DNA of 64,000 bases from Bradyrhizobium genosp. L (lineage in GTDB: Bacteria; Pseudomonadota; Alphaproteobacteria; Rhizobiales; Xanthobacteraceae): contig NZ_CP061378.1 in the NCBI RefSeq assembly GCF_015624485.1, positions 62,001 through 126,000 on the forward strand, read 5' to 3'. The position numbers and the translations under genes were made by a program. Each line of letters begins with the position of its first letter. The stretch's first letter is position 1. Below the pieces are notes generated by a model. That model was not told where the DNA came from. It worked only from the letters and a program-made list of their open reading frames with translations, and did no database searches. Shown here piece by piece: positions 13,992 to 15,474 of the stretch.

Positions 13992-14013
13992 ATGTGATTG
14001 CAATGCATGCACC

Positions 14014-14036
14014 ATATGATAGCGTTGCTATCATAT
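14014..14036. promoter_or_regulatory. perfect 10-bp inverted repeat, FitA-type operator upstream of coaBC
   Basis: ATATGATAGC, spacer GTT, GCTATCATAT; the dyad ends 13 bases before the coaBC start codon. The right half contains TGCTATCA (14026-14033), and the left half contains TGATAGCG, one base from TGATAGCA. As I recall, these two octamers are the half-sites bound by the Neisseria FitA antitoxin. Because the downstream frame opens with a FitA-like domain, this is best read as the operator for autoregulation. Confidence 0.7.
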
Positions 14037-14049
14037 CTGGGGCTATGCC

Positions 14050-15474
14050 ATGGCCAGCCTGACCATCCGCAAACTCGACGACACCCTGAAGGCCTATTTG
14101 CGGCTGCGCTCCGCCAGGAACGGACGCTCGGTCGAGGAGGAGATCCGGGTGATCCTCCGCGAGCTCGCGGAGGGCCGTGGCGAGGCCGCGGAGGCGCTTG
14201 CCACTGGCCCTAGCGAAGCTCCCACGGCTGCTCCACGGCCCGTCAGCGCCGCCGGCGAGCCCCGCGTCACCCTGATCATCGGCGGCGGGATCGCGGCCTA
14301 CAAGGCGCTGGACCTGATCCGGCGGCTCAAGGAACGGCACATCCAGGTCCGCTGCGTGCTGACCAAGGCGGCCCAGCAATTCGTCACGCCATTGGCGGCC
14401 AGTGCGCTGTCGCATGAGCGGGTCTACACCGACCTGTTCGACGCCGAGAGCGAGTTCGATGCCGGCCATATCCGGCTGGCGCGGGAGTGCGACCTGATCG
14501 TGGTGGCGCCGACGACCGCCGACCTGATGGCCAAGATGGCGCAAGGCCATGCCGACGACCTCGCCAGCGCCATCCTGCTGGCGGCCAACCGGCCGATCCT
14601 GCTGGCGCCGGCGATGAACCCGTTGATGTGGAACAATCCCGCCACCCGCCGCAACGTGCTGCAGCTCCGCCGCGACGGCGTCCATACCGTCGGGCCCAAT
14701 GCCGGCGAGATGGCGGAGGCGGGCGAGGCCGGCGTCGGACGGATGGCCGAGCCTGTCGAGATCGCCGCCGCCGCGGACCGCATGCTGCGGCCGCCGAAGC
14801 CGCGTCCCCTCGCCGGCAAGCGCGTGCTGGTCACCGCCGGACCGACCCATGAGGCGATCGACCCGGTGCGCTACATCGCCAACCGCTCCTCGGGCAAACA
14901 AGGTTTCGCGATCGCCGCCGCGGCGCAGGCGGCGGGCGCCGACGTCGTGCTGGTCACCGGCCCCGTCGAGCTCGACGATCCCTTGGGCATCTCCGTGATG
15001 CGGGTGGAATCGGCACGCGACATGCTGCACCGGGTCGAGGCCGCGCTGCCGATCGACGTCGCGATCTTCGCCGCCGCGGTCGCCGACTGGCGCGTCGCCA
15101 GCGAAGGCACGCAGAAGCTGAAGAAGAGCTCGGCCGGCATGCCGCCGCTGCAACTGGTCGAGAATCCCGACATTCTGGCGACGATCTCCAAGCTGAAGGA
15201 GAAGCGGCCGCCGCTGGTGATCGGCTTCGCCGCCGAGACCGAGCATCTGATCGAGAACGCCAAGGCGAAATTCGCGCGCAAGGGCTGCGACTGGATCGTC
15301 GCCAACGACGTCTCGCATGCAACCGGTGTGATGGGCGGCGACCGCAACACGGTCCATCTGCTGGCGCGCGAGGGCAAGGACGTCACCGTCGATTCATGGC
15401 CGGTCATGACCAAGGAAGAGGTCGCGGCCGCTTTGGTGTCGCGGATCGCACGAACCGTGGGGACTGCATCGTGA
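14050..15474 (+). CDS. coaBC: FitA-like ribbon-helix-helix domain fused to bifunctional CoaBC
   Basis: Phosphopantothenoylcysteine synthetase (CoaB) and decarboxylase (CoaC), two consecutive steps of coenzyme A synthesis, in one 474-residue chain. Residues 1-41 ([20 protein letters not shown], then [17 protein letters not shown]) match the FitA/VapB antitoxin RHH pattern MASxxIRxL...GRSxExEIRxIL; 42-70 is an Ala/Pro/Glu-rich linker. CoaC spans about 71-245: GGGIAAYK, His140 in AGHIRLAR and APAMNPLMW. The flap has [10 protein letters not shown], so the usual cysteine of the ACGE motif is Ala224. CoaB spans about 255-474 ([23 protein letters not shown]). No credible start separates the domains. 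The GTGA overlap couples it to dut. Confidence 0.93.

Follow-up and report, generated by a model that had tools for sequence, protein, structure and literature searches.

The window, that is the whole stretch of 64,000 nucleotides analysed from Bradyrhizobium genosp. L (contig NZ_CP061378.1, positions 62,001 to 126,000), carries coaBC on the plus strand, with ubiB before it and dut as the gene that follows. The coaBC frame (14050-15474) encodes 474 amino acids, starts with ATG and runs without a stop, and the gap of 58 bases that separates it from ubiB contains two putative operator sites (Table 1). A sequence-only reading of this DNA had described the frame as open throughout, with a FitA/VapB-type ribbon-helix-helix (RHH) antitoxin domain at residues 1-41 and a full CoaBC at residues 71-474, and all of this is borne out by the profile searches and by the 474 codons themselves.

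Table 1. Features of the coaBC locus, in positions of the window
Feature	Position	Strand	Basis or remark
Second putative operator site, partly decayed, TGATTGCAATGCATGCA	13995..14011	.	Intact palindrome TGATTGCANTGCAATCA in many relatives
Putative operator, perfect inverted repeat ATATGATAGC-GTT-GCTATCATAT	14014..14036	.	Core TGATAGCGTTGCTATCA at 14017-14033
FitA-like RHH domain, codons 1-41	14050..14172	+	
Ala/Pro-rich linker, codons 42-70, predicted disordered, without the toxin-binding tail motif	14173..14259	+	
CoaBC core (CoaC flavoprotein, then CoaB), codons 71-474 and stop	14260..15474	+	Pfam, NCBIfam

Over the N-terminus, the Pfam family FitA-like_RHH (PF22513) matched residues 2-39 with 56.9 bits against a cut-off of 27 (E 2e-15), this being the alignment that the sequence-only reading had proposed as a check. 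Over the remainder, the NCBIfam model TIGR00521 (coaBC_dfp) matched residues 72-466 with 391.6 bits, above its equivalog cut-off of 219.7, and Pfam placed Flavoprotein at 72-239 and DFP at 254-438; RHH, Flavoprotein and DFP are the only Pfam domains over cut-off in the 474-residue protein. Searched against the PDB alone, the window sequence reached gonococcal FitA at an E value of 0.025 only. When 23 fused RHH domains were combined into a profile, it was reached at 1.8e-7 (2h1o) and 2.2e-7 (2bsq), and the Mnt repressor at 0.0036. The AF2 model, built from 42 sequences and of moderate quality (mean pLDDT 73, pTM 0.54), has helices at residues 11-24 and 28-40, a disordered linker at 44-68 (pLDDT below 50) and the enzyme core. 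The ribbon strand expected at residues 2-7 is modelled as helix in this monomer, in a block with a mean pLDDT of 61.

As judged from its codons, the RHH domain is under purifying selection and its start codon is conserved. The sequence-only reading had looked to stops or frameshifts in the RHH part of close relatives as evidence that could overturn it; among 81 Bradyrhizobium-type sequences, made up of the window and 80 kept relatives (75 of the 80 named Bradyrhizobium), there is no stop in the RHH part, and the start codon stands at the same position in all 81 (ATG in 77, GTG in 4). Residues A2, L4, R7, L9, D10, L17, R18, R20, R26, S27, E29, E31, R33, I35 and L36 are invariant in this set, and T5 is present in 80 of the 81; R7 is a contact residue according to work on FitA. 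Pooled omega for codons 2-41 was 0.229, about three times the 0.075 found for 100 CoaC codons, in the 58 of 81 rows that have the anchor motif (the 23 rows without it were left out); a stricter anchor, with 21 rows, gave 0.231 for the RHH codons and 0.074 for CoaC. The next methionine is residue 160, as the sequence-only reading had it, and codon 34 is indeed a GTG inside the RHH domain; an in-frame TTG at codon 17, which that reading did not mention, also lies inside it. In a more distant genome of genus g25 (G236, locus L161) a frameshift in the linker splits the fused gene into an RHH frame of 53 residues and a CoaBC frame of its own, with the operator kept, where both true fission and a sequencing error are possible.

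The operator goes beyond what the sequence-only reading had described. Its partly decayed site, TGATTGCAATGCATGCA, lies 22 bp upstream of the main operator core, start to start, and many of 30 close relatives have two palindromes in tandem, of the types TGATTGCANTGCAATCA and TGATAGCATNGCTATCA. Within 150 nt upstream of coaBC, at least one exact half-site (TGATATCA included) was found in all 81 Bradyrhizobium-type loci and a full palindrome in 52 of them. A search of 40 genomes of the genus with the exact pattern TGATWGCN3GCWATCA gave 38 matches against 0 for the reversed control, and 36 of the 38 stand directly before coaBC. The exact palindrome is present in 26 of the 40 genomes, at coaBC in 25 of those, and absent in 14; where a locus has two sites they are spaced by exactly 23 bp (11/11). 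The operator is short, and across the genomes of the genus that were searched its exact form hardly occurs anywhere but at coaBC. Besides the one at coaBC, the genome of the window has a single exact match, at 6098060, at the 3' end of an ORF that its translation suggests is TetR-like; we take this match as chance and reject it as a sign of a wider regulon. Across the 40 genomes just one further exact palindrome, locus L280 of G594, stands elsewhere than at coaBC. With three mismatches allowed, the genome of the window gave 154 matches against 190 for the control, so that looser sites, showing no enrichment, are indistinguishable from noise. A sigma-70-like promoter was looked for at the operator site and not found. 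Genera g37 and g43 have the operator farther from the ATG, adjoining ubiB, with extra sequence between, and in the upstream 400 nt of L041 and L051, where the operator likewise adjoins ubiB, the sequence between operator and coaBC start is repeat-like.

On upstream sequence, the operator of coaBC is that of FitA-type antitoxins, and it goes with the fusion. Exact half-sites of the type TGATWGCA/TGCWATCA (TGATTGCA/TGATAGCA) lie within 300 nt upstream of coaBC in 23 of the 27 genera with the fusion and at none of 66 unfused loci (0/16 of the family and 0/50 of the order and class). Fisher's test gives p 5e-18 on rows that share ancestry, and the well-supported independent contrasts between fusion and operator number only 2-3, none of them contrary, which is too few for a test. 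In this count L119 was left out for its orientation, L083, L066 and L093 were kept apart as slot intermediates (the slot being the interval between ubiB and coaBC), and for g20 and g26 the second genome of the genus was used. Variant palindromes only, such as TGATGGCATTGCCATCA in g8 and TGATATCAATGATATCA in g36, are found in 4 of the 27 fused genera. Among the RHH-bearing rows of the tree described below, 8 of 40 lack an exact half-site, 5 of these being toxin-antitoxin (TA) modules in the slot. Fused loci of family f24 have upstream sites of their own: TGATTGCATTGCTATCATTG in L105 and L110, the palindrome TGACAGCAATGACGGCATTGCTGTCA in L302 and one TGCTATCA in L303. The last of these words is presumably the FitAB half-site; our literature search found no paper that gives it as such. 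Locus L303/L304 belongs to a strongly reduced genome of 1.5 Mb (G678), which retains the RHH-CoaBC fusion together with this upstream half-site.

The same words stand before free antitoxin genes. Our stand-alone set, 20 of the 22 RHH-only matches listed away from coaBC, comes from other genomes and was picked on protein before the upstream DNA was read. The commonest upstream 8-mer in these FitA-like loci is TGATTGCA (8/20), which is likewise the top 8-mer upstream of the fused set (22/27), and an exact half-site of the TGATWGCA type is present in 10 of the 20. The second word upstream of the stand-alone genes, TGATATCA, accompanies a hydrophobic residue at strand position 5: it was found in 6 of 6 stand-alone or slot loci with such a residue versus 1 of 20 others (p 3e-5) and, over all 85 classified loci, in 7 of 7 versus 7 of 78 (p 7e-7). 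These p-values flatter the link, which had been noticed by eye ahead of the count; the search pattern used for the count did not pick up L050. Among the fused proteins Ile5 occurs in L065 alone, and upstream of that gene stand two copies of TGATATCA and no TGATTGCA. This covariation suggests that the fused domains read DNA like free antitoxins.

The sequence-only reading had reported no PIN toxin near the gene, and this holds genome-wide, no PIN domain over the Pfam cut-off being found in the genome of the window. One sub-threshold PIN match was seen there (21.3 bits, cut-off 23.6), in a frame of 58 amino acids; it is a C-terminal match outside the window (G000:C1:3324123-3324257, L160) and possibly a relic of a TA module lost elsewhere. 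A second PF22513 match at E of 0.01 or below was not found in that genome among the 150 of 215 first-look candidates that were scored. The FitA-type tail motif that binds the toxin is absent from all 34 fused proteins, whereas 16 of 26 separate antitoxins have it (10/20 stand-alone, 6/6 slot).

Several relatives hold a TA module, whole or damaged, in the slot. A complete fitA and fitB pair is present there in all three sampled genomes of g44 (L083, L166, L167), in G079 of g10 (L162), with TTGATTGCAATGCAATCAT before fitA, and in G329 of f35 (L093), whose three sampled sisters are without it. In another g10 genome, G009 (L066), fitA in the slot is followed by a toxin gene with its middle deleted, and no RHH or PIN was found in the slot of the other four g10 genomes. 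We read these contents as insertion, toxin loss and fusion, having taken place at least twice, the direction of the steps being one that we infer. One slot of family f24 (L171, in G363 of genus g108) is occupied by a VapC-like PIN gene together with two RHH genes, unlike the g108 genomes G398, G428 and G718, which carry the RHH-CoaBC fusion; as the neighbour of G363 is a fused sister, this slot may also have come about by loss or replacement.

A survey of the family for the extension, called for in the sequence-only reading, found it widespread there and short of general: judged by the first genome of each genus, 27 of 47 genera are fused, 17 are unfused and 3 could not be assigned (two with partial matches, one with none). 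CoaBC was matched in 292 of 296 genomes of the family, and among the matches listed all begin at residue 1 or 2 except that of G236. In the order (146 of 150 genomes matched) the fusions outside the family among the matches listed are those of G398 and G428, both of family f24, and in the phylum (128 of 130 matched) the only further ones are those of G718 and G678, again of f24. For the class (108 of 142 matched) the CoaBC matches listed outside the genome of the window begin at residue 41 or later, except that of G576 (18-472), and in each of the five plasmid records listed, out of 129 that matched, the alignment starts no earlier than residue 54. Of 1868 candidates in a protein search with residues 1-70, 1057 matched with E values up to 1e-3, and the best 120 of the 1057, all those listed, have both PF22513 and PF02441. 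On a quick tree of 81 CoaBC cores (L099 and L112 left out) the fusions of f24 are separated from the ones in the family of the window, and the state 'fused' needs 9 changes, at least 2 of them forced by starred branches, with the direction, fusion or loss, not fixed by the tree. Two proteins of 623 amino acids (P0036 and P0116) have RHH, CoaBC and dUTPase (PF00692) in one chain, coaBC being additionally joined to its neighbour dut. A Bradyrhizobium-like RHH-CoaBC with 78% identity to the window protein lies on a contig titled Frankia sp. RB7 (L228), which is probably a mislabelled or mixed record.

A close parallel is trifunctional PutA, in which an RHH domain stands at the N-terminus of the enzyme and which acts as autogenous repressor of its own regulon (PMC5293562). 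Like PutA, the fused protein is a flavoenzyme with an N-terminal RHH domain and, as read from sequence, a putative operator at its own gene. The catalytic domains and the pathway are unrelated, however (no proline dehydrogenase or P5C dehydrogenase domain over cut-off was found in CoaBC), and the RHH domain of CoaBC belongs to the FitA type and is accompanied by an operator of TA type. FitAB of Neisseria gonorrhoeae shares the RHH domain and an inverted-repeat operator before its own gene. Four FitAB heterodimers occupy a 36-bp segment and the FitB toxin, itself off the DNA, promotes binding by stabilising the complex (PMC3920265). The coaBC locus differs in having neither toxin gene nor tail motif, and the antitoxin has become a domain of a metabolic enzyme. 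Compared with ordinary Dfp proteins (TIGR00521), it has the full CoaC and CoaB and scores above the equivalog cut-off, so its activity and oligomeric state are presumably those of the family; it departs from them in the extra N-terminal RHH domain and linker, absent from CoaBC of most groups sampled. The mycobacterial enzyme is described as a dodecamer in which CoA and CoA thioesters inhibit the activity of CoaB (PMC7794376). The fused protein is a CoaBC with a FitA-type domain, neither a FitA antitoxin nor a PutA, and it may well work as PutA does.

The sequence-only reading had proposed an antitoxin domesticated as a DNA-binding domain on CoaBC, and the comparisons speak for it: the fusion with its RHH match, the selection on the domain, the operator with its ties to the fusion and to stand-alone FitA-type genes and its near-uniqueness within the genus, the TA modules, whole or gutted, in the slot of relatives, and the absence of both tail motif and toxin are all established at the level of sequence. 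We put a probability of roughly 0.8 on the reading that a fitAB module upstream of coaBC lost its toxin and that its antitoxin and operator were made into a PutA-like autoregulatory loop. On this reading the slot would once have held a fitA-fitB module, of which the toxin gene would have been lost and the antitoxin RHH joined in frame to CoaBC, with the operator of the module kept as the control site of coaBC. Most likely the fused CoaBC binds the tandem palindromes before its start codon and, when bound, would repress its own transcription in the manner of trifunctional PutA. The CoaBC oligomer may take the part of FitB, holding RHH dimers together on neighbouring sites; with these dimers on flexible linkers it could span both palindromes, and it might sense CoA. 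The union of an RHH domain with a TA control site before the gene makes control of coaBC by its own product very probable, in Bradyrhizobium and in many relatives. Repression is probably the mode, a conclusion argued from the TA and PutA analogies and not from position, because no sigma-70-like promoter was found.

Among the alternatives, the one that fares best, though it is unlikely, is that the RHH domain binds the operator and activates transcription, or sets a basal level only. No promoter was recognised, which gives the site no position relative to RNA polymerase and leaves room for this idea. Free RHH antitoxins are generally autorepressors, which counts against it, as does the example of PutA, an autogenous repressor (PMC5293562). 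Rather less credible is a passive relic, in which the RHH domain is kept through its weld to an essential enzyme and any operator binding has no regulatory use. The RHH omega of 0.23 is above the 0.075 of CoaC, and the domain is dispensable at least in the 17 of 47 family genera without the fusion and in L161, where CoaBC is still open after the linker frameshift; against a relic stand the non-coding operator kept across genera and the way strand residue 5 and the operator word vary together. That the domain still neutralises, in trans, a PIN toxin encoded at another place is suggested by the close match to FitA-type antitoxins, but for the genome of the window we reject this as most improbable, with no PIN over cut-off in it and no tail motif in any of the 34 fused proteins. 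An annotation artefact, with translation starting downstream at the TTG or GTG and the RHH part untranslated, is equally hard to credit, as both codons lie inside the domain, and a wrong start is rejected on the stop-free RHH part, the ATG or GTG at one place in all 81 sequences and the omega of 0.23.

Returning to domestication of a fitAB module into an autoregulatory loop, a further extension of it is possible and decidedly more tentative: CoaBC may have captured a TA operon more than once, its oligomer replacing FitB, and CoA or its thioesters bound to CoaB may change the RHH array. In our literature search no paper was found that describes an RHH-CoaBC fusion, most subscription papers lying outside its coverage. 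CoaBC and toxin-antitoxin systems co-occur in studies of a Microcystis bloom and of Acinetobacter surveillance, where the accessible text has CoaBC once each, and the accessible part of a paper retrieved for fused antitoxin domains (PMC4803016) makes no mention of CoaBC fusions. Databases already annotate these proteins with the three Pfam domains, and the source names of the fused proteins shown give only CoaBC or its two activities.

In conclusion, candidate intermediates among living relatives show how a TA module can be dismantled, with its regulatory part incorporated into an essential enzyme. The fusion would stand as a second PutA-like design beside the classic PutA and offers a route by which CoA synthesis could be controlled through transcript levels in Bradyrhizobium and the large group to which it belongs. 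If the more tentative extension is true, CoaBC would act at once as enzyme, as sensor and as repressor of the step it catalyses, with the level of CoA feeding back on transcription.
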